IMG/VR virus record: IMGVR_UViG_3300036985_004744
Location: 1 to 34,070 of that record
Length of the DNA stretch: 34,070 bases
Source: a virus
Direction: 5' to 3' (one strand)
Notes under the pieces: model-generated
The model's input: the letters and a program-made list of their open reading frames with translations, nothing else
Databases searched by the model: none
What the model was told of the DNA's origin: nothing
Shown here: one piece after another, positions 2,767 to 34,070 of the stretch
Layout of the letters: the number at the start of each line of letters is the position of its first letter
Position numbering within the stretch: position 1 is the stretch's first letter
Program-made: the position numbers and the translations under genes

Positions 2767-5076
2767 ATGAGATTCACCAAGCAGTCCGTCGACGACGTCA
2801 AAAGGGCCGCGAGCATGGCTGCAGTGGCGCGAGTGTTCTGCGCGCGCGTCAAACATGAGCACGGGGCGCATTATTCGGCGGTGTGCCCGTTCCATCAGGA
2901 TAGCAACCCGTCGCTGGACATCGACGAGGCGAAGGGCCTGTACATCTGCAGGGCATGCGGGGCCGGTGGCGACGCCCTGGTGATGATTGAGAAGCAGCGG
3001 GGCGTCGGGTTCGCCGAGGCCATCATGGAGCTGTCGACGATGACCGGCATCCCCCTCGTCGAGGTGGCCGACGAGGCCCCTCGCGTCGTCGCTGAGTGGC
3101 ACTACGTCGACGACGCTGGGCGCAAGGCCTACACCATCAAACGATGGGAACCGGGCAGGGGGCGCGACGGGAAAAGCAACGGCAAGCGAAAGTCCTACTC
3201 CCAGCACCTCGCCGACGGCATGCCGGGCAAGGCGCAGACCCAGCTGCCCTATCGCCTCCCTCAGCTCATCGAGGCTCGCAAGGCCGGGGCGTTCGTCGTC
3301 CTCGTCGAGGGCGAGAAGGCAGCAGACGCGGTCGTCGCCCTGGGCGTCGTCGCCACGACGTGGGCCGGTGGCACTGGTGCCGTCGGAGAGGGTGAGCGGA
3401 CGACGTGGACGCCTGCTTTCGCCGAGCATTTTCGGGGCGCGCACATTGCCCTGTGGCCCGACAACGACGAGGTTGGCAAGGCCGCGATGGGGCGCATCAT
3501 GCAAGTCCTCGACGGGGTCGCTGCCGAGGTAGTGCTCATCGAAACGAGCATGAACATGAAGGGCGCCGACGCCTGCGACTGGGTGAGCGCAGGCGGGACT
3601 CGCGATGCCTTGCAAGGGCTCATCCTCGAAGCCCGCAAGGCAGCAACCTCGCGCGTCGTCACGCCTGCCCCACCACCCACCAGTGGCCATGCCGACTACC
3701 TCACCGACAGCGGCAATGCCGAGCGCTTTGTCCGCATGCATGGGCAGGACTTTCGCTTCCTCGTCGACGCTGGCCGGTGGATGCACTGGACCGGGTCATG
3801 CTGGGACCTCGACGGCGACGCCGCTGCATTGCATGCGACCAAACTTGTCGCACGCAGCTGGCGCGTGGACTCCGTCGCCGAGGCCGACCAGACCGAGGGG
3901 TTGAAGCTGCGCCGCCATGCCGACCGCAGCGAGGCCGCGCCCAGGCGGGCCGCAATGCTGACGCTGGCCGCAAGCGAGGAGGGCATCGCGGTCTCGTCCG
4001 CCGACCTCGACAAGGACCCCGAAATCCTGAACGTCCTGAACGGCACCATCGACCTACGCACCGGCACCCTCCGAAAGCATGACCGCCGGGACCTATGCAC
4101 CAAGATAGTGCTCGTAGACTTCGACCCCGCTGCGCAGTGCCCGGTGTTCGACGCATTCCTCGCTGAGATTCTCCCCATCGAGGAGACCCGCGAGTACCTG
4201 GGGAGGTGCGTCGGGTACGCTGCCACCGGCGTCATCCGCGAACATTTTTTTCCGGTGCTGTGGGGTCAGACCGGGCGCAATGGCAAGGGCACGTTTATCG
4301 AGGCCGTTTTCGCCTCCCTGGGCCCCTATGCCACCGCCCTCCCCAACGACGTCATCATCGAGTCGAGGTCTGACCCACATCCCAACATGTTTGCCCAGCT
4401 CAAGGGGGTGAGGATGGGCGTCGTGGCCGAGCTCAGGCCGACGGACAAACTGAACGAGGGGATGCTGAAAAAGCTGAGCGGCGGGGACAGCATCCGCGCG
4501 CGCTACATGGGCGGGGAGTTTTTTACGTTCACGCCCAGCCAAAAGATGTTCCTGCAGACCAACTACAAGCCCAGGGTTCGAGGTGGGGACCCGGCGTTGT
4601 GGGCACGGATGCGCGTGATTCCGTTTGGCGTCTCGTTCGTCGGCCGCGAGGACCTCGGGCTCAAGGCCCGCATCCACGCCGAGCTGCCCGGCCTCCTCGC
4701 CCGTATCGTCCGGTGGTCCCTCGACTGGCGGCAGCTGGGCCTCACCCCCCCGCAGGAGGTCGTCGACGCCACTGCCGAATACCGCGAGGAGTCCGACCGG
4801 GTGGGCCAGTTCCTCGAGGAAAGGACCGAGAAGGCCCCCATGGCCCGCTGCCCAGCCGGTGCGCTGTGGCGCGCGTTCCGCACCTGGTGCGAGGAAAGAG
4901 GCGAAAGCGCAGGGGGCCAAAATGCTTTCTTTGTGGAAGTCAAGTCGCGCGGTTTTTCGGCCGTCAAAGTCAGTGGCGAGCGCCGCTACCAAGGGCTGCA
5001 GCTGCGTTCGGGGGTATCGTCCGATGGGTCGATATCGCCCTCGGGGAGCGTGAACGTAGAAGATCCATGGGCTTAG
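2767..5076 (+). CDS. P4-type primase-helicase (zinc finger, TOPRIM, D5-type ATPase)
   Basis: 769-residue replication initiator combining primase and helicase. The CHC2-type zinc finger is at residues 40-64 (C40, H43, C61, C64). The TOPRIM core follows, with VLVEGEK (E181, E183) and the acidic pair in WPDND (D232, D234). A D5_N-like segment carries LNVLNGTIDLRTG at ~421-433, and the superfamily 3 helicase ATPase has Walker A GQTGRNGKGTF (500-510), Walker B-like GVVAEL (551-556) and the sensor LQTNYKP around N599. This order matches phage P4 alpha and its relatives, which bind iterons at their origin, prime and unwind DNA. The iteron array begins 23 bp downstream, a strong contextual match. No phage DNA polymerase is present, so host polymerase would be needed. 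The C-terminal ~100 residues (LWRAFRTWCEE) look like the usual winged-helix DNA-binding end. Confidence 0.95.
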   Translation: MRFTKQSVDDVKRAASMAAVARVFCARVKHEHGAHYSAVCPFHQDSNPSLDIDEAKGLYICRACGAGGDALVMIEKQRGVGFAEAIMELSTMTGIPLVEVADEAPRVVAEWHYVDDAGRKAYTIKRWEPGRGRDGKSNGKRKSYSQHLADGMPGKAQTQLPYRLPQLIEARKAGAFVVLVEGEKAADAVVALGVVATTWAGGTGAVGEGERTTWTPAFAEHFRGAHIALWPDNDEVGKAAMGRIMQVLDGVAAEVVLIETSMNMKGADACDWVSAGGTRDALQGLILEARKAATSRVVTPAPPPTSGHADYLTDSGNAERFVRMHGQDFRFLVDAGRWMHWTGSCWDLDGDAAALHATKLVARSWRVDSVAEADQTEGLKLRRHADRSEAAPRRAAMLTLAASEEGIAVSSADLDKDPEILNVLNGTIDLRTGTLRKHDRRDLCTKIVLVDFDPAAQCPVFDAFLAEILPIEETREYLGRCVGYAATGVIREHFFPVLWGQTGRNGKGTFIEAVFASLGPYATALPNDVIIESRSDPHPNMFAQLKGVRMGVVAELRPTDKLNEGMLKKLSGGDSIRARYMGGEFFTFTPSQKMFLQTNYKPRVRGGDPALWARMRVIPFGVSFVGREDLGLKARIHAELPGLLARIVRWSLDWRQLGLTPPQEVVDATAEYREESDRVGQFLEERTEKAPMARCPAGALWRAFRTWCEERGESAGGQNAFFVEVKSRGFSAVKVSGERRYQGLQLRSGVSSDGSISPSGSVNVEDPWA

Positions 5077-5456
5077 CGGTTTTTGGCTTTTATATACATG
5101 GACAGACTGGACAGACTGGACAGATGTCAAAATATGAGTCTGTCCAGGCTAAACCGGCATCAGGGAGCCGTTTTGGACAGGCTGGACAGACTGGACAGAC
5201 TTTTACAGGTTTTTGCTGCGTAGAGAGCGCGAGAAGTGTCTCACCCCACCTCCGTTTTGGGGCTCTTTTTCAGAGAGCGACTTTTTGGGAAAAGTCTGTC
5301 CAGTCTGTCCAGAACAAGAAAATAAAGGCTTTGCAAAGCGCTAGAACCGTGGACAGACTTTGAAAAACCGCCCTGTCCAAGTCTGTCCACCTGTCCAGCG
5401 CCGTCGCGGCAAAGCACCACATGAACAACCACTGAACAAAACGAGGGCCGTAACGC
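5077..5456. other. 380-bp non-coding region with iterons: candidate replication origin
   Basis: This is the only gene-free stretch longer than 300 bases. It is visibly richer in A and T than its surroundings and holds direct and inverted copies of a 9-bp word (listed separately), plus the perfect 12-bp palindrome GCTTTGCAAAGC at 5328-5339. A TATATA run lies at its left edge (5091-5096). One + strand frame stays open across part of it but runs out of phase through the primase gene and shows no protein-like composition. Adjacent to a P4-type initiator, an origin is the best reading; an operator array controlling the flanking genes is the alternative. Confidence 0.7.
5099..5397. repeat. Iteron array, ~13 copies of TGGACAGAC in both orientations
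   Basis: Forward copies (TGGACAGAC, last base or two variable) start at 5099, 5108, 5117, 5174, 5183, 5192 and 5350. Reverse copies (GTCTGTCCA or a close variant) start at 5138, 5294, 5303, 5371, 5381 and about 5389. The two triplets at 5099 and 5174 and the pair at 5294 are exactly head-to-tail at 9-bp spacing. The last copies are degenerate. I noticed only isolated partial matches to the word elsewhere in the genome. Confidence 0.9.
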
Positions 5457-5741
5457 ATGACCGCACCCCTGACCGACTACCAGCTCCGCCACCTGCGCAG
5501 CCTCATCGAGCGCGAGCGCACCAGTTCCGGCGAGACCGCCGCCGGAATCCTGCTTGCCGCTGCCCTCGCCCGCCTGCAGCACTGCGAGCGCAGGCTCGCC
5601 CAGGCCGAGGGTCTGGCGGTGGCGCTGCGCTACTATGCTGCCCGCGAATACAGCAGCCGCACCGCGCCGGACTCCGCTATCCAATGGCACGCAGACAAAG
5701 CCCTCGCCGCCTGGGCCCGCATCGAGGGGCAGGAGCCATGA
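5457..5741 (+). CDS. Hypothetical helical protein
   Basis: 94 residues. It begins right after the iteron region with a weak GAGGG ribosome site about 12 bases upstream of the ATG. It reads as a three-helix domain: LTDYQLRHLRSLIERE, then TAAGILLAAALARLQHCERRLAQAEG, then a third helix ending in HADKALAAWARIEGQ. No recognisable motif or membrane segment. The stop overlaps the start of the zinc-ribbon gene, opening a chain of overlapping small genes that runs to the RusA-like candidate. Function unknown. Confidence 0.7.
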   Translation: MTAPLTDYQLRHLRSLIERERTSSGETAAGILLAAALARLQHCERRLAQAEGLAVALRYYAAREYSSRTAPDSAIQWHADKALAAWARIEGQEP

Positions 5742-5986
5742 CCGACGACAATATGCCCAGGTGGGTCCACACCTGCTCGCGGTGCGGGGTGACCGAGCCG
5801 ACCGACCGCTGCGAGGAGGAGTGCCCGGTGTGCCAGGTGGCGATGGCCGCCGACAAGCTGCAGCCCCCGCCGGACGCCGACGAGCTGGCCCGCAAGCAGC
5901 GCGTCGTCGATGCCATTGGGGTCTACATGAGCAAGCCCGCCAAGCCCATCATCCCCCGCCGGTGGCGCCGCCCGGGGTTCCGATGA
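5738..5986 (+). CDS. Small zinc-ribbon protein
   Basis: 82 residues; the ATG at 5738 overlaps the previous stop. Two Cys pairs, CSRC at about residue 13 and CPVC at about residue 30, form a likely four-cysteine zinc ribbon, with an extra Cys (RCEEEC) between them. After a Pro-rich turn comes a helix (ADELARKQRVVDAIGVYMS) and a basic end, RRWRRPGFR, which could contact nucleic acid. Small zinc-ribbon proteins of this kind are common in phage replication regions and rarely have known roles. The zinc site is seen; DNA binding is inferred. Confidence 0.7.
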   Translation: MTDDNMPRWVHTCSRCGVTEPTDRCEEECPVCQVAMAADKLQPPPDADELARKQRVVDAIGVYMSKPAKPIIPRRWRRPGFR

Positions 5987-6132
5987 CCCTCGGACTCATC
6001 GCCCTCGTCGGCGCCATCGCCATCGGTGGTGCCCTCGGGGTCGTCGCCGCCTGCGAGGCCGTCGACGATGCCCTCCGCTCCCGCCGCCGCCAGCGCGCCC
6101 TCGACTCCTTCACCCCCCGCGAGGACCGATGA
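5983..6132 (+). CDS. Small single-pass membrane protein
   Basis: 49 residues, ATG overlapping the previous stop and its own stop overlapping the next start. Residues ~3-24 (LGLIALVGAIAIGGALGVVA) form one hydrophobic transmembrane helix, followed by a charged, Arg-rich cytoplasmic-type tail (RSRRRQRALD). It is far from the lysis genes, so a holin role is not suggested by position. It may anchor replication proteins or alter the membrane, but nothing in the sequence decides this. Confidence 0.6.
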   Translation: MTLGLIALVGAIAIGGALGVVAACEAVDDALRSRRRQRALDSFTPREDR

Positions 6133-6776
6133 GCACGACACACCCGACTCTGACCGCCCGCATCGACGTCACCCTGCTGCGAGGCCAGAACAACCGCGAG
6201 CACCACCGGGTCCGCGCGGCGAGAGTCGCCGCCGAGCGCCTGGCCACCCTTGCCGCCCTGGCTGCTGGTGACTGGCGAGGTGACCCGGTGTCGCTGCGCA
6301 GGCCTGAGCTGGGCGCGCGCGTCACCCTCGTCCGCCCCTTTGTGTCCACGCCCCTCGACGGCGACAACCTGAGCGCAGCCTTCAAGGCCCCGCGCGATGC
6401 CGTCGCCCAGTTCCTCGGGGTCGATGACGCAAGCGACCGGCTGCATTGGGTCTACCTGCAGTCCCCCGCCGTCGTCACCGGCAAGTCGAAGAAACCGGGC
6501 CGGACCCGCGCGAGCACCGACCACGACACCCGCCCCCTGCTGCGCATCGAGGTGATGCCCGTCGCGAACATCGACCCGCAGGCCGAGGCCCTCGCCCAGG
6601 CCGAGGACCGCGAGTGGGCCCTCGGGGTCCAAGTCGTCGCGCAGGCCGCGAGGCTGAAGCTGGCGGAGGCTGTCGTCGACGAGGCCCGCTATGGACAGCC
6701 GACGCTCGCTATGCGCCAAGTTCTCGCCGCCTGGGACGCGGTGCCGGGTGATGCCGCCCCCGTTGACCTCGGGTGA
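6129..6776 (+). CDS. RusA-like Holliday junction resolvase candidate
   Basis: 215 residues, ATG overlapping the preceding stop. The central segment has the RusA-type pattern: PLDGDNL (D77, D79), then K86 and D90 within FKAPRDAV, and GVDD (D99, D100) followed by a beta strand LHWVYLQ. In RusA the equivalent acidic residues bind metal and cut four-way junctions, and the conserved lysine is also needed. Spacing between DNL and the lysine is three residues longer than in E. coli RusA, so this would be a divergent branch. The C-terminal third is helical. It ends the replication region just ahead of a terminator and the terminase genes, a usual place for a resolvase that clears branched DNA before packaging. 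Confidence 0.5.
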   Translation: MSTTHPTLTARIDVTLLRGQNNREHHRVRAARVAAERLATLAALAAGDWRGDPVSLRRPELGARVTLVRPFVSTPLDGDNLSAAFKAPRDAVAQFLGVDDASDRLHWVYLQSPAVVTGKSKKPGRTRASTDHDTRPLLRIEVMPVANIDPQAEALAQAEDREWALGVQVVAQAARLKLAEAVVDEARYGQPTLAMRQVLAAWDAVPGDAAPVDLG

Positions 6777-6821
6777 CGGCGCTGTCACCGTCGAGGTGCG
6801 CAGCCTAAGCAACAGCGTGTG

Positions 6822-6866
6822 GGCCTCGCCTCTGCAATTCCGCAGGGGTGGGGCCTGGTCTTTTTT
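6822..6866 (+). terminator. Intrinsic terminator between replication and packaging genes
   Basis: A 14-bp stem with three G-U pairs (arms GGCCTCGCCTCTGC at 6822-6835 and GCAGGGGTGGGGCC at 6842-6855) closes a 6-base loop and is followed by TGGTC and six T residues. It lies in the 132-bp gap before the small-terminase candidate and separates early or middle transcription from the late genes. Confidence 0.8.
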
Positions 6867-6908
6867 GGCGCCGCGACATGCCGCGCGCAATGTGGCAGCA
6901 TCGGCAGA

Positions 6909-27531: not shown

Positions 27532-28904
27532 TGGCTGTCCTGAAAAATACCACCTATGAGGGCTCGCCCATTTTCGACATCGACCCGGGCTCAGAAACCT
27601 GGAAGCGCACCCTCGCCAACGCCCAGGGCGACGTGGCCGGCGCCCTCGCCCTGCTGACCGACAACGCCGAGGCCGACCACATCGACCATAGTGGGAGCGG
27701 GAGAGGTGCGCTGCTGGGAGTCCCGTGGGTGAACCAGGCCATGGGCATCGGGCTGGGCCTCGACACTGGCGGGGCGAAAAACGGCGGGGTCGTCGCTGGC
27801 GACCTGAAAAACTTTTTCTTTTTTTTGCGCATCGAACCGGGCGAAACCGAGGTCGTCGTCGACGTCACGATTGCCAACCTCCTCGACGGGTTCAACCCTC
27901 GCGTCCGGCTGTCATCGACGTCAAACATTGCCACAGCTGTCGGCGCTGACCTTGAACTTGACCTGCAAGGCACACCCGCCGCTGGGCAGGTGACCTATGA
28001 GGCCACATTCACGGGGTGCGCTGCCGGCCTCGCCCTGCTGACAATCATTCTCGACTGCGAGCGCGACAGCGACATGACTGTCCTGAGTGACAGCACCGAG
28101 CTGTCCTGCGTTGTGGTGCGAAAAAACAGGGCAGGGGTGGCGAAACTGCAGCCGACTCGCGACGCAAGCAACCCCGTCCCCGTCGTCGCCCCGTCGGCGA
28201 CACAGGCGTTATTTTTTCAACAGATGGACTCCGCCGTTTTTGCGCTGACGTTTGGCTACTCAGGGATGACGGGCTGGCAGACGTCGCGCGTAGACCGCAA
28301 CATCAACGGGCTGCTGGAGTTTTTGACGGGCATGCCGGCGGGCACAAACCGGACCTATACCCACACCGAGAGTGCGCTGGTTTCCCCGACGCGCGACCGG
28401 TTCCGCGCATTCACCCGCAAGACATTCGCCGCCGAGCCCATCCCCATCATCCCCATCATGTCCCTCTGTTTTGGTGGCATCAAGGACGACGGGGGCTATC
28501 TGGTGAACCCATCCTCGACGCCCTCGAAGGCTGCGCGCCGAGCCTATGCGCCCTTCCCGACATCCGCCACCTCGCAGCAGCTGGGCACCGCGCGGTGTCG
28601 CATGCCCGACGTCCCCGATGGTGTGTCCTCGGTCCTGCGCTGGGCCGTCCTTGCCGGGCAGTCCTCGGTGGCTGGCTGGACCGACGTCCGCGCCCAGGTG
28701 CAGATGGGCAGCGAGACCGCCTCGACTGCAGCAGCCCTCACCCCGGTGACTGGCGCGACGCACTTGGCCGTCCTCACCGGGGTCGCCCTCGACATGCGCC
28801 GCGACGAGCGAGACAAGCTGCAGGTTTTCTTCTCTCAACCCGCCGGGGTCTTTGCCGACACCAACTACTGTCTGCTCGCCGCAGCAGTCTGGATCGAACC
28901 ATGA
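27531..28904 (+). CDS. Tail tip-associated structural protein
   Basis: 457 residues from ATG 27531, which overlaps the previous stop; an in-frame GTG at 27522 is an alternative. Beta-rich throughout, with VVVDVTIANLLDGFNPRVRLS, YEATFTGCAAGLALLTIILDCE and LQVFFSQPAGVF. A striking run of Phe codons (LKNFFFFLRIE) contains eight T residues in the DNA, 27819-27826. No family recognised. The gene lies within the tail-tip run and shares its stop/start overlap with the next gene, so a virion role is likely. Confidence 0.6.
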   Translation: MAVLKNTTYEGSPIFDIDPGSETWKRTLANAQGDVAGALALLTDNAEADHIDHSGSGRGALLGVPWVNQAMGIGLGLDTGGAKNGGVVAGDLKNFFFFLRIEPGETEVVVDVTIANLLDGFNPRVRLSSTSNIATAVGADLELDLQGTPAAGQVTYEATFTGCAAGLALLTIILDCERDSDMTVLSDSTELSCVVVRKNRAGVAKLQPTRDASNPVPVVAPSATQALFFQQMDSAVFALTFGYSGMTGWQTSRVDRNINGLLEFLTGMPAGTNRTYTHTESALVSPTRDRFRAFTRKTFAAEPIPIIPIMSLCFGGIKDDGGYLVNPSSTPSKAARRAYAPFPTSATSQQLGTARCRMPDVPDGVSSVLRWAVLAGQSSVAGWTDVRAQVQMGSETASTAAALTPVTGATHLAVLTGVALDMRRDERDKLQVFFSQPAGVFADTNYCLLAAAVWIEP

Positions 28905-29566
28905 CCGCGCGCGTGTTCTCTCGTCGATTCCTCTCTGCCGCTGCGACCCAGACGCACGCACACGCCTATTCCGAGACCGCTCAGTCGCTCGTCGGGCGCA
29001 CTCGGTTCGCTTGGGAGCTGGCCACCGGGGCCAGCGCAGTTACCGGTGAGCTCCCTATGGTCGAGGTCAACCCGCAGGGGCAGATAGGCTGCGACATGAG
29101 CGGGCCCCCGTTTGGTCCCGCCCTGCTGCTGCCGGTGTGGGAATGGGTGGGGCAGCCTGATGGGGGCGTCTCGCCAAGCAACTACCTCAGCGCCATCGGT
29201 ACGACGACGGTGAGGCTGCCCCAGTTCTCGCTGTGGAATCGCCCGCATGCAGTACGCCCCGACGGGCTCGCCCCGCTGCAGCAGATGGTCTTCTCTCATC
29301 GCACCCAGGCCGGCGCAGGCACGTCGACGGTGCTCACCATCACTTTCCGCAACATCACCAACGGCACCGAGGTGGTCTACACCCGCACTATCAACACGAC
29401 GTCGACGGTGGACTACACCGAGACCGGCTACGTTCCTCTCGCGCCCGGCCTAAACAGCCTGCAGATATCCGCGAGGTCCAGCGTCGGTACGCGCGTTTTC
29501 AACATCCGCTCCATGCTCCTCGCCGTTGGCGCCAAGCGCCGCGTCGACCTCTCTTTCCCCGGGTGA
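28901..29566 (+). CDS. Beta-rich tail-associated protein
   Basis: 221 residues; ATG 28901 chosen for its overlap with the previous stop. An N-terminal segment (RVFSRRFLSAAATQTHAHAYSE) precedes a beta-sandwich-like domain: VLTITFRNITNGTEVVYTRTIN, TVDYTETGYVPLAPGLNSLQISAR and TRVFNIRSMLLAVGA. This looks like a carbohydrate-binding or jelly-roll fold, but no binding residues can be named. It is the last structural gene before the patatin and lysis genes. Confidence 0.55.
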   Translation: MTARVFSRRFLSAAATQTHAHAYSETAQSLVGRTRFAWELATGASAVTGELPMVEVNPQGQIGCDMSGPPFGPALLLPVWEWVGQPDGGVSPSNYLSAIGTTTVRLPQFSLWNRPHAVRPDGLAPLQQMVFSHRTQAGAGTSTVLTITFRNITNGTEVVYTRTINTTSTVDYTETGYVPLAPGLNSLQISARSSVGTRVFNIRSMLLAVGAKRRVDLSFPG

Positions 29567-29571
29567 CCTCG

Positions 29572-30432
29572 ATGGCCTCCTCCCCTATCGCCGGCTCCTC
29601 GTCCGATGTCTCCCTCGCTGTCACCGGCGGGGGGACCAACGTCATCGCCCTCGCCGCTGCCCTGTATGCAATCGTCCGCCGACTCTCGCAGGAGCGTCGA
29701 CAGGTTCGCGCCCTGGTGGGCAGCAGCGCGGGAGGCCTGTCGGTGCTGGGCGCTGCGTTCGGCGTCGACGAGGAACGATTGCAGGCCCAGCTGGAGGGCG
29801 CCTGCAGTCGCAACAGGCTCATCGACGGGGGCCCGCACAACATCATCATGTTCGGGGCATGGGCCTCCATGGCTGAGTTCCGCCGCAACGCCGCCCTTGT
29901 CCTCGGGGCAGACGCCCGCCTGGGCGATGCGCGCACCCCCGTGGCCTGCATGGTGAGCGACCAATGGACCGGGCGCCCTCGCATCATCTCGTCCTGGGAA
30001 CACCCCGGGGCCAGCGCCGTCGACCTCGCCTGCGCCACTGCCGCCATTCCCTACGTTTTCGAGCGTCAGAAAATCAGGGGCCTCGACGACCATCACTACG
30101 TCGACGGCGGTGTTGCAAAAAACCTTGCCTCCGACGAGCTGGACCGGTTCCGCTGCCCGGTGGTGTCGCTGCGACTGCAGTCCCCAGCTCGCGCGCCGGC
30201 TGAGCCTAAGGGCCCGCTGGGCAGGCTGCTCGCCAACGCCGAGCTGCTGATGCATGCGAGCAACAACGCATGGGAGAGCGACCACCCCGACAGCGTCGTC
30301 GTCGACGTTCCCGGTGAGAACGGTCTCGATTTTGACCTGTCGCGTGGGGACTGCATGCGCCGCCGAGGGGCTGGGCAGATGGCCGGCGACGGATGCCGCC
30401 TGCCCCCACCCGGGCAGCCCGCAAGGAGATAG
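29572..30432 (+). CDS. Patatin-like phospholipase
   Basis: 286 residues from ATG 29572, 5 bases after the previous stop. All patatin landmarks are present: the glycine-rich oxyanion loop LAVTGGGTNV (G19-G21), the nucleophile elbow ALVGSSAGG (G-S-S-A-G, Ser52), the ACATAAIPYVFE block (~153-164) that matches the family's 'S.A.P..F', and the dyad aspartate in YVDGG (D178). Patatins are Ser/Asp lipid acyl hydrolases, so it probably cleaves phospholipids. There is no signal peptide or membrane helix. It lies just upstream of the holin candidate and cysteine peptidase, so a lysis or envelope-disruption role is likely by context. A virion entry role or a defence-related role is possible. The enzyme family is confident, the biological role is not. 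Confidence 0.88.
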   Translation: MASSPIAGSSSDVSLAVTGGGTNVIALAAALYAIVRRLSQERRQVRALVGSSAGGLSVLGAAFGVDEERLQAQLEGACSRNRLIDGGPHNIIMFGAWASMAEFRRNAALVLGADARLGDARTPVACMVSDQWTGRPRIISSWEHPGASAVDLACATAAIPYVFERQKIRGLDDHHYVDGGVAKNLASDELDRFRCPVVSLRLQSPARAPAEPKGPLGRLLANAELLMHASNNAWESDHPDSVVVDVPGENGLDFDLSRGDCMRRRGAGQMAGDGCRLPPPGQPARR

Positions 30433-30500
30433 CCTCAGCACCATCGGGGCGATACAGTGTGAGGCATGCGCGCACCCCTCACCCTCACCCTGGACGGCAC

Positions 30501-30896
30501 ATGACCGCAGGCATCGCTACCGTCCTCGCCGACCACACCGGCGCCGTCGTCGCGGGTGGGGCCAGCTCCCTCGGGGCCCTCGCGTTCGCCGCCGGGCAGG
30601 TGCCGATACCACCGGGGGTGCCCGTCGAGGTGGTGTGGGCAGCGGTTACGTTCGGGCCCCCGCTCGCCTGGCTGGGTGTGGCCATCCTCCGCGCGACCGC
30701 GAGCTACCACGTCACCCGCCGACTGCGCGCGCAGGAGCGGGCCGACAAGTTGCTCGCGGCTGGGCATGCCGTCGACGATGACGACGTCGAGAAACACCTC
30801 GACGCTGCCGACCGGCACGCGAGTTGGGCCAGCGCCCTCGGGCAGGCGAGTACCGACGTCGCACCCTCGCCCGTTCGTCCTCGGAAGGTCTCTTGA
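30501..30896 (+). CDS. Holin candidate
   Basis: 131 residues from ATG 30501. Two hydrophobic segments, about residues 14-30 (AVVAGGASSLGALAFAAG) and 39-62 (EVVWAAVTFGPPLAWLGVAILRA), are followed by a long charged cytoplasmic-type tail (RRLRAQERADKLLAAGHAVDDDDVEKHL). This is a plausible holin or pinholin shape. It sits between the patatin and cysteine peptidase genes. A 12-codon frame (ATG 30466) ends with a TGA overlapping this start and could couple translation. The hydrophobic segments are seen; pore formation is inferred. Confidence 0.6.
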   Translation: MTAGIATVLADHTGAVVAGGASSLGALAFAAGQVPIPPGVPVEVVWAAVTFGPPLAWLGVAILRATASYHVTRRLRAQERADKLLAAGHAVDDDDVEKHLDAADRHASWASALGQASTDVAPSPVRPRKVS

Positions 30897-31528
30897 GCCT
30901 CCGTCGCATCGGCCACCTTGACCCTTCCCGGGTCCTCCACCAGGGGGCCACGTCTTGGCGCGACCACCTCGTCGGGTTGTCTCGCGACAAGAAGCAGCAC
31001 ACCTTTGGCCGGGTGGGGTGCGCGGTGACCGCCGTCGCCCAGGCCGTGCTGCTGCTCAGGCAGGAGCTCGCGACACCCCTCACCGTCCAGAGTCGAGGCA
31101 TCGCCGCAACGCCCGCAGTGTGGACGCAGGACCGCCCTGCCGCTGCTCGCCTGGGCCGTCTCGTTCGAGCGCAAGGCCTGCGCTGCGACGACGCCCCCAT
31201 CGGCGACAACGGCGACGACGTCTACGACGACATCGACACTGCGAGCCACCGCACTGCCATCCTCGACACCCTCGCCGCCGGCGGGGCGTGCCTGCTGTGG
31301 GTGGACACCGACCTGAGCGACGCGAGCACCGCTGGCCGGCACTGGGTCCTCGCGCATGCAGTCCTCGTCGACGACAGCGCCAAGGGCATCGTCGGGGTGG
31401 TGCATATCTGCGACCCTGCCACCGCGCGCGTCGAGGGCCTGGACCTGCGCACCCTGTCCGGCTGCATCATGTGGGGCGAGCGCCCTCGAGCCTACGCCGT
31501 CCGCGCTGTTCGACCCATCCGTCGTTGA
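30893..31528 (+). CDS. C39-like cysteine peptidase, probable endolysin
   Basis: 211 residues from TTG 30893, which overlaps the holin stop and has GGAAGG 6 bases upstream; an ATG at 30824 in frame would overlap the holin by 73 bases and is less likely. A papain/C39-type triad is visible: C43 in FGRVGCAVTAVAQAV, H150 in GRHWVLAHAVLVDD and D174 in VVHICDPATARV. Such folds serve as bacteriocin-processing peptidases and as phage peptidoglycan or cell-wall hydrolases. Beside a holin candidate, an endolysin is the best reading. There is no signal peptide and no recognisable wall-binding domain. No spanin-like gene follows; the next feature is a terminator. Confidence 0.7.
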   Translation: MSLRRIGHLDPSRVLHQGATSWRDHLVGLSRDKKQHTFGRVGCAVTAVAQAVLLLRQELATPLTVQSRGIAATPAVWTQDRPAAARLGRLVRAQGLRCDDAPIGDNGDDVYDDIDTASHRTAILDTLAAGGACLLWVDTDLSDASTAGRHWVLAHAVLVDDSAKGIVGVVHICDPATARVEGLDLRTLSGCIMWGERPRAYAVRAVRPIRR

Positions 31529-31605
31529 CGTCGTCGACACCGGTGACTACCCTGTGGCCTGGGCCGTCGTGGGCCCGGGTCCGGTCTCTCTGAGAGTGTG
31601 TGTCG

Positions 31606-31637
31606 CGCGCCATCCCCCCGGGTGGCGCGTTTTTTTT
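31606..31637 (+). terminator. Strong intrinsic terminator ending the late genes
   Basis: CGCGCCATCC pairs with GGGTGGCGCG (one G-U) across a CCCC loop, followed by eight T residues (31630-31637). It ends the late transcript after the peptidase gene. The descending arm (31622-31628, GTGGCGC) can also pair with GCGCCAC at 31640-31646, so an alternative hairpin competes with the terminator. Confidence 0.9.
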
Positions 31638-31713
31638 GTGCGCCACGTCACATCGCTTCCACGGGAAACGCTGGAATGGCGTTGCAATGCGGATGCCTGC
31701 TTGACGTTGGAAC

Positions 31714-31742
31714 TTGAAAAATAATGCAGCCTGCATTATTGT
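31714..31742 (+). promoter_or_regulatory. Candidate early promoter overlapped by a perfect palindromic operator
   Basis: TTGAAA (31714-31719) and TATTGT (31737-31742) are spaced by exactly 17 bases. The spacer and the start of the -10 hold a perfect inverted repeat, AATAATGCAG C CTGCATTATT (31720-31740), the ideal place for a repressor to block polymerase. Upstream lie two small dyads, TTCCACGGGAA (~31657-31667) and AACGC/GCGTT (31667-31683). The promoter would drive the genes from 31789 onward. The cognate repressor is not identified. Confidence 0.65.
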
Positions 31743-31788
31743 TCACTCACGGCGCACGACACACACCGCCGCAACAGGAGCCACGACC

Positions 31789-32088
31789 ATGACCACCACG
31801 ACCTCCGCCCACACCGCCTGCATCGTAATGACCGCCGCCGCGCAGATGCCGAATTCCTGCTGGGGCAAATACCGCCGCGTCGCTGTCGTCGAGGTGGAGC
31901 TCGTCGACGGCGCCCCTGTTGAACCCAAAATGATCAGCGCTCGCGCTCGCGGCGTCGTCGCTGTCCGCGCGACTTGGGAAAAACTGAACGTCGGTCACAC
32001 CGCCCGCTGCGCTTTCCAGCGTGCCGTTGCTGAGGCCGAGGAGCTGGCCGCCGAAATCAACGCCGACCGCGCCCGCCTCGCCGCCTGA
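31789..32088 (+). CDS. Hypothetical early protein
   Basis: 99 residues, ATG 31789 with CAGGAG 11 bases upstream; an upstream in-frame ATG (31714) would be inside the promoter and is rejected. Core: SCWGKYRRVAVVEVELVDGAP, then PKMISARARGVVAVRATWEKLNVG and a C-terminal helix RAVAEAEELAAEINADR. I recall similar short proteins in other phage early regions with no assigned role. It is the first gene behind the operator-bearing promoter. Confidence 0.75.
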   Translation: MTTTTSAHTACIVMTAAAQMPNSCWGKYRRVAVVEVELVDGAPVEPKMISARARGVVAVRATWEKLNVGHTARCAFQRAVAEAEELAAEINADRARLAA

Positions 32089-33802: not shown

Positions 33803-34070
33803 CCATCACCGTTCACACCGACCTTGCCCAGGGCACGCAGGAATGGCTGCAGGCTCGATGCGGGTTGCTCACCGCGAGCCAGATGAAGCTCGTCCTTACG
33901 CCTGGGCGCCTGAAACCTGCCGACAACGACAAGAGCAGGACCCACCTGTATGAGCTGCTCGCCCAGCGCCTGACCCAGTACGTCGAACCGTCGTTCGTCT
34001 CCGACGACATGCTGAGGGGGCACACCGACGAGGGTGAGGCACTCGACATTTACGAGGAGAACTATGCGCC
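33799..34070 (+). CDS. YqaJ-like viral recombinase / exonuclease, N-terminal part (continues at window start)
   Basis: Starts at ATG 33799 with ATGA overlap to the previous stop. The N-terminus has the YqaJ entry motif GTQEWLQARCGLLTASQMKLVLTPGR (residues ~12-37, including the Q-E-W and R-x-G-L-x-T-A-S core). The frame runs off the window end and continues without a break at positions 128-539 through the circular junction. The catalytic residues lie in that other part. Confidence 0.93.
   Translation, partial: MTITVHTDLAQGTQEWLQARCGLLTASQMKLVLTPGRLKPADNDKSRTHLYELLAQRLTQYVEPSFVSDDMLRGHTDEGEALDIYEENYA
33944..34070. repeat. Right copy of 127-bp terminal direct repeat
   Basis: Identical to positions 1-127. 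Both copies fall inside the exonuclease gene in the same reading frame, which is what a redundant circular overlap gives. Confidence 0.95.

Follow-up and report, generated by a model that had tools for sequence, protein, structure and literature searches.

What does a patatin-like phospholipase do when it is encoded directly between a tail-region gene and the lysis genes of a phage in which no spanin is apparent? This question is raised by the IMG/VR virus record IMGVR_UViG_3300036985_004744, which was analysed over its full length of 34,070 bases and is referred to here as the window (G000). Its two ends are identical (Table 1) and an exonuclease reading frame continues across their join, so the record probably represents a whole phage genome, either circular or terminally redundant. 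Primase, TerL and tail-like genes are also present.

Table 1. Positions of the features discussed, listed by record.
Record	Feature	Positions	Strand	Remarks
G000	Direct repeat	1-127 and 33944-34070		127 bp, identical; ends of the circular or terminally redundant record
G000	Structural (tail-region) gene	28901-29566	+	221 aa; PHROG distal tail protein, weak match (E 0.013)
G000	Predicted patatin-like phospholipase	29572-30432	+	286 aa, one terminal stop; PF01734; AlphaFold2 patatin fold
G000	Codon of predicted nucleophile Ser52 (GSSAGG)	29725-29727	+	GSSAGG is residues 50-55
G000	Codon of Asp178 (DGG)	30103-30105	+	DGG is residues 178-180
G000	Antisense ORF, rejected	29428-30444	-	Longer than the patatin frame
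G000	Holin-like protein	30501-30896	+	131 aa, two hydrophobic stretches, charged C-terminus; alternative in-frame GTG start at 30459
G000	Papain/C39-like cysteine peptidase	30893-31528	+	211 aa; AlphaFold2 pLDDT 87.5
G003 (L014)	Patatin, holin-like gene and peptidase	4184-6079
G003 (L014)	N-terminal-TM gene	29314-29733	+
G003 (L014)	Lipoprotein gene	29736-29999	+
G003 (L014)	Homologues of the two tail-region genes preceding the window patatin	29996-32064		46 and 48% identical
G035 (L098)	M15 peptidase	6313-6870	reverse complement	Pfam E 3.3e-21
L090	Small TM and coiled-coil protein	3175-3411
L093	175-aa N-terminal-TM protein	4308-4835	-	No PHROG match
L132	Patatin	5800-6609
L134	Patatin	5683-6498
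L135	Patatin	5683-6498

The gene is predicted to encode a patatin-type lipid acyl hydrolase. Its product matches the Pfam Patatin family over residues 15–185 (E 2.9e-14; 54.2 bits against a curated cut-off of 27.7). An earlier note on this DNA had read the serine and aspartate motifs, a glycine-rich oxyanion loop and an A.A.P block from the sequence, and all four were recovered intact where it placed them, the loop being TGGGTN (residues 18–23, with G19/G20) and the block ACATAAIPY (residues 153–161). Ser52, Asp178 and G19/G20 are invariant in the nine phage patatins aligned, and the Ser and Asp are also invariant in 8/8 of a wider set. Structure prediction, proposed in the same note as a check of the active site, gave a confident patatin fold (AlphaFold2 model built from the nine phage patatins; pLDDT 80.3, pTM 0.83), in which the predicted catalytic residues occupy a turn and a strand end: Ser52 lies between strand 45–51 and helix 54–62, and Asp178 ends strand 175–178.

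The nearest solved folds are the CBASS lipases CapV and CapE, followed by PlpD and plant patatin. VIA Z-scores against patatins and CBASS lipases are 20–25 across 238–266 residues (24.8 for 9kh6_A, 23.3 for PlpD and 21.7 for plant patatin), with only 16–21% identity in the structural alignments. A CBASS effector was considered and rejected on the basis of the lysis context and the score against the cGAMP-activated phospholipase model NF041079, which is 34 bits against an equivalog cut-off of 200.

The window patatin has no apparent signal peptide and matches no PHROG family. A tblastn search of 50,697 phage records with the patatins of the window, G035 and G010 returned no match at E≤0.01. Escherichia coli RssA as a query matched 13 phage records, and the one examined resembles a piece of bacterial chromosome. 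This record (L130; CAKLQH020000002.1, 145581–154111) is labelled as an Acinetobacter phage, has only bacterial-type genes around its rssA patatin and looks like a chromosome contig. In the viral structure library, 39 entries matched at E≤0.001; by name, most belong to large or insect DNA viruses and one to an uncultured tailed phage.

The patatin is under purifying selection. The copy in IMGVR_UViG_3300028571_000005 (G001) is 80% identical to that of the window, and the mismatches between the two fall at codon positions 1, 2 and 3 in the numbers 47, 28 and 119. The corresponding NG86 estimates are dN 0.147 and dS 0.927, the dN being lower than that of the four neighbouring genes compared between the same records (0.166–0.234). 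Five pairs of patatins within the G007 group gave dN values of 0.022–0.027 and dS values of 0.25–0.33. A chance reading frame is ruled out by the PF01734 match, the confident fold, dN/dS and the codon-position bias of the mismatches. GC bias at third positions is weaker in the longer antisense frame than in that of the patatin, and the antisense frame was taken to be a by-product of high GC content.

The surroundings of the gene are ordered as the earlier note described, with the patatin directly upstream of a holin candidate and a cysteine-peptidase endolysin candidate. On its other side, the tail-region gene stops 5 nt before the patatin start, and the spacing is likewise 4–5 nt in the window and G001. 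The two-TM gene that follows the patatin is holin-like, an assignment made by topology only. Relatives of its product occur in G001 (78% identity), G003 (28%) and G035 (34%); it has no family match, and its N-extended form gave one PHROG at E 0.1. The cysteine peptidase is the probable endolysin. Its model is papain/C39-like, with Z-scores of 15.8 to staphopain, 13.2 to PeiR, a pseudomurein endoisopeptidase, and 13.1 to the C39-like structure 3erv. Its triad of Cys43, His150 and Asp174 is invariant in 10/10 aligned cysteine peptidases. Pfam and PHROG searches with its N-extended form gave no match, and a viral contig search with the window peptidase alone recovered no relative.

To place the locus among related phages, 40 viral records, many of them fragments, were gathered by a TerL profile search. 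Eight of these carry a patatin (2/4 plus 6/36) and 20 carry the cysteine peptidase (2/4 plus 18/36). Both genes are present in seven relatives (G001, G003, G007, G008, G009, G010 and G016), while the patatin of G035 occurs without a C39-like cysteine peptidase. The remaining 13 of the 20 cysteine-peptidase records have no patatin; one of them, G015, is cut short by the end of its contig. A gene judged by eye to be metallophosphoesterase-like directly follows the cysteine peptidase in the patatin-less records L086–L094 and, in the G007 group, directly precedes the patatin.

Scanning with nine patatins identified 14 loci, which gives 15 patatin records when the window is included. This is the search for patatins in the same place that the earlier note had suggested, and the arrangement recurs: 12/15 records have an endolysin-like gene no more than ∼0.6 kb from the patatin. 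The G007 group is nearly clonal (∼96% patatin identity), so these 12 represent about five independent lineages. The nearby gene is a C39-like peptidase in ten records (the window, the seven relatives with both genes, L139 and L140) and an M15 peptidase in two (G035 and L133). In L132, L134 and L135, no endolysin was recognised among the ORFs near the patatin, of which four neighbours were scanned against Pfam. These three records come from lower-GC phages and contain another group of phage patatins, located among tail-region-like genes.

Comparison of the loci suggests that the patatin travels with the lysis genes. The patatin, holin-like gene and peptidase of G003 are found together, away from the homologues of the two tail-region genes that precede the patatin in the window. 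Thus, the patatin cassette has moved relative to the structural genes and has been kept as a unit. The upstream neighbours of the patatin differ between lineages, and the downstream side consists of lysis genes. The type of endolysin also varies. G035 has an M15 peptidase, in convergent orientation, after the patatin and a holin homologue. In L133, a larger phage, the patatin comes first, then a small ORF, then an M15 protein in convergent orientation (Pfam E 8e-18; PHROG ‘endolysin’ E 1.1e-40). The occurrence of either a C39-like or an M15 peptidase beside the patatin is a non-homologous exchange of endolysins within one cassette. Moreover, in seven of nine junctions the stop of the patatin gene overlaps the start of the gene that follows: the overlap is 4 nt in six (G003, G007, G008, G009, G010 and G016), and a single nucleotide in the seventh (G035). 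No overlap is present in the window and G001, where 68–72 nt separate the patatin from the holin ATG. The position in G003, the endolysin exchange in G035 and L133 and the stop-start coupling all link the patatin with lysis and not with the tail.

According to the earlier note, no spanin is seen in this phage and phospholipid hydrolysis could replace spanins in breaking the outer membrane. The whole record was therefore scanned in six frames for lipoproteins using a lipobox rule, with lambda as a control, where five matches were found and, among them, only Rz1 and Bor showed the strict motif. The strict scan returned no match in the entire records of the window and G001, in agreement with the note. 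The lipobox scan gave no match in the window, G001, G003 and G010, and one 53-aa match in G007. With relaxed settings, one 41-aa match was found in the window against 0.6 expected from shuffling, two in G001 against a shuffled mean of 1.1, and three in G003 against 0.6; the counts for the window and G001 are near chance.

The same scan was informative for relatives without a patatin. A strict match was found in none of eight such records (G017, G018, G025, G030, G034, G038, G039 and G040), and two of them, G030 and G038, have one looser match each. The absence of a spanin thus does not track the patatin. Lack of a lipoprotein is a trait of the wider phage group, which counts against a simple exchange of spanins for a patatin. 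In addition, G003, which has a patatin, encodes a lipoprotein two bases downstream of a gene with an N-terminal TM segment. This cysteine-rich lipoprotein, found by the relaxed scan only, is encoded near an HTH gene, on the strand opposite the late genes and away from the cassette; the two genes may be a spanin pair lying apart or an accessory to lysogeny. The interpretation in the earlier note is therefore supported in part: an intact patatin does lie in a conserved lysis cassette, in a genome without a visible spanin. The replacement of spanins is the weaker part, given that the patatin-less relatives also lack a clear lipoprotein, that G003 has a lipoprotein gene as well as a patatin and that the host is only weakly indicated.

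Other small membrane proteins are encoded in these cassettes. The slot before the small membrane genes holds an N-terminal-TM protein of the 175-aa type in G018, G025, G038, G039 and G040, and a repeat protein in G017, G030 and G034. A homologue of the 175-aa protein of L093 precedes the patatin in G035. A small protein with a TM segment and a coiled coil, without a lipoprotein partner, occurs in the patatin-less cassettes of L090 and its relatives. The gene of this type in the G030 cassette has a weak PHROG match to Rz-like spanins (E 0.0014). Both the TM-coil type gene and the patatin are present, side by side, in the G007 group, and the window cassette contains no TM-coil gene.

A Gram-negative host is likely for the window phage. 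A search of cellular genome contigs with five aligned TerLs found nothing, while 14 aligned TerLs matched two contigs of one Myxococcales MAG (39–40% TerL identity), one of which also carries chromosomal-type genes (BatA/BatD-type, acyltransferase). This MAG was the only one of 195 Myxococcota genomes with a TerL match. Neither the patatin nor the cysteine-peptidase profile matched it; the TerL genes lie ∼5–6 kb from contig ends, so the lysis region may be missing from these contigs. The patatin subfamily was detected in 0/195 Myxococcota genomes at E≤1e-15, in a set without a positive control. Myxococcales is accordingly a hint only, derived from a distant prophage in a single MAG.

Taken together, the preferred interpretation, with roughly an even chance of being right, is that the patatin is a working part of a lysis cassette consisting of the patatin, a holin-like protein and a peptidoglycan peptidase. 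Without an apparent signal peptide, the patatin would accumulate in the cytoplasm. Once the holin opened the inner membrane, the patatin and the peptidase would exit together, the peptidase cutting the peptidoglycan and the patatin presumably stripping acyl chains from envelope phospholipids. This might weaken the inner membrane together with the inner leaflet of the outer membrane, easing virion release. By analogy, the patatin would take over, in a phage without a visible spanin, what LysB does in mycobacteriophages: a third lysis step that is lipolytic. This role is favoured by the intact family, fold and active site, purifying selection, conservation of the cassette, its relocation, the endolysin swap, the coupling and the LysB precedent. 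Counting against it, the patatin is dispensable for this type of cassette, since only 7 of the 20 cysteine-peptidase records carry one. The gap in the window and G001, the three records without a recognised endolysin, a holin assigned by topology only and the near-clonal G007 group also weigh against it. A strict version, in which the patatin acts instead of spanins, overlaps with the lysis role and is possible but rather doubtful. Equally tentative is the generalisation that, in one lineage of tailed phages that infect Gram-negative bacteria and lack spanins, the holin releases a soluble patatin that dissolves the outer membrane from its periplasmic face as a Gram-negative counterpart of LysB, in a module that pairs with C39-like or M15 peptidases and has moved with the cassette.

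Three other roles can be envisaged. The patatin could be a moron or host-modifying enzyme of the late region, which remodels host lipids or the envelope, or serves in defence or superinfection exclusion, with no direct role in lysis. Patatin-like morons have been reported in Burkholderia prophages (PMC2920897), the CBASS lipases are the closest structural neighbours, and presence in only a fifth of the TerL relatives is as expected for an accessory gene. We consider this role unlikely, given that the patatin stays joined to the holin and endolysin through both the cassette move and the endolysin swap, that its stop overlaps the start of the next lysis gene, that the CBASS model scores far below its cut-off, and that the subfamily was not found at the threshold above in the Myxococcota set, which held no positive control.

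The patatin might instead act on the inner membrane, where it would make lysophospholipids from the cytoplasmic side that trigger or help the holin. The outer membrane would then be broken by another factor, such as the Rz-like TM-coil protein of some relatives, or need no help. The lack of an apparent signal peptide is consistent with such a role, and the patatin-less relatives without a strict lipoprotein imply that the outer membrane is apparently passable with neither spanin nor patatin. The weakly Rz-like gene of G030, and the co-occurrence of that gene type with the patatin in the G007 group, point the same way, but the window cassette has no such gene, and we regard this role as improbable. 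Still less probable is an entry enzyme packaged at the tail tip that opens the envelope during infection, an alternative named in the earlier note. The short distance between the tail-region gene and the patatin in the window and G001 would suit it, and PMC8248633 mentions entry or exit for the patatin of phage WO. However, the upstream neighbours vary by lineage while lysis genes stay downstream, the patatin stands alone with no structural domain seen, and the tail-region homologues of G003 are located elsewhere than the cassette.

If the lysis role is correct, the same outer-membrane step would be served in other phages by lambda Rz/Rz1 or by unimolecular spanins; no lipoprotein was found in the window. 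Disruptin-type peptides are another spanin substitute. The window patatin differs in fold from LysB. In mycobacteriophages, LysB is a mycolyl-arabinogalactan esterase, whereas the patatin has a dyad of Ser and Asp and presumably acts on phospholipids, such that only the proposed job is alike; for phage Ms6, LysB is described as a tested lipolytic third lysis step, like that of spanins (PMC5707550). No spanin was found in 91 of 677 surveyed phages, and the way in which phages without spanins breach the outer membrane of Gram-negative hosts is called an open question (PMC6139136). An enzymatic outer-membrane step, if true, would be useful for opening Gram-negative cells.

The earlier note regarded phospholipid hydrolysis as a lysis strategy not well described. 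A putative patatin-based lytic cassette was, in fact, already proposed in 2022 for Wolbachia phage WO, which is described as lacking the canonical set of endolysin, holin and spanin and whose cassette includes an ankyrin protein (PMC9203015). In both WO and the window, the gene for a patatin-like phospholipase adjoins a small holin-like gene close to the tail module, and lysis is proposed where no spanin was found (PMC9203015, PMC8248633); the holin of the window is recognised by topology only. No ankyrin match was detected in ten neighbouring window proteins, the rest of the genome having been scanned in part. No paper describing a patatin adjacent to both a holin and a peptidoglycan endolysin was found in the open-licence literature. 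That the patatin persists beside a holin and an endolysin in several lineages, two of which have exchanged the endolysin, turns the WO proposal into specific proteins for a lambda spanin-defect assay. The window thus differs from WO in that a probable peptidoglycan peptidase follows the patatin, the ankyrin protein belonging to WO. The pairing of a patatin with such a peptidase, the swap of that peptidase and the movement of the unit are what these comparisons add to the known systems.
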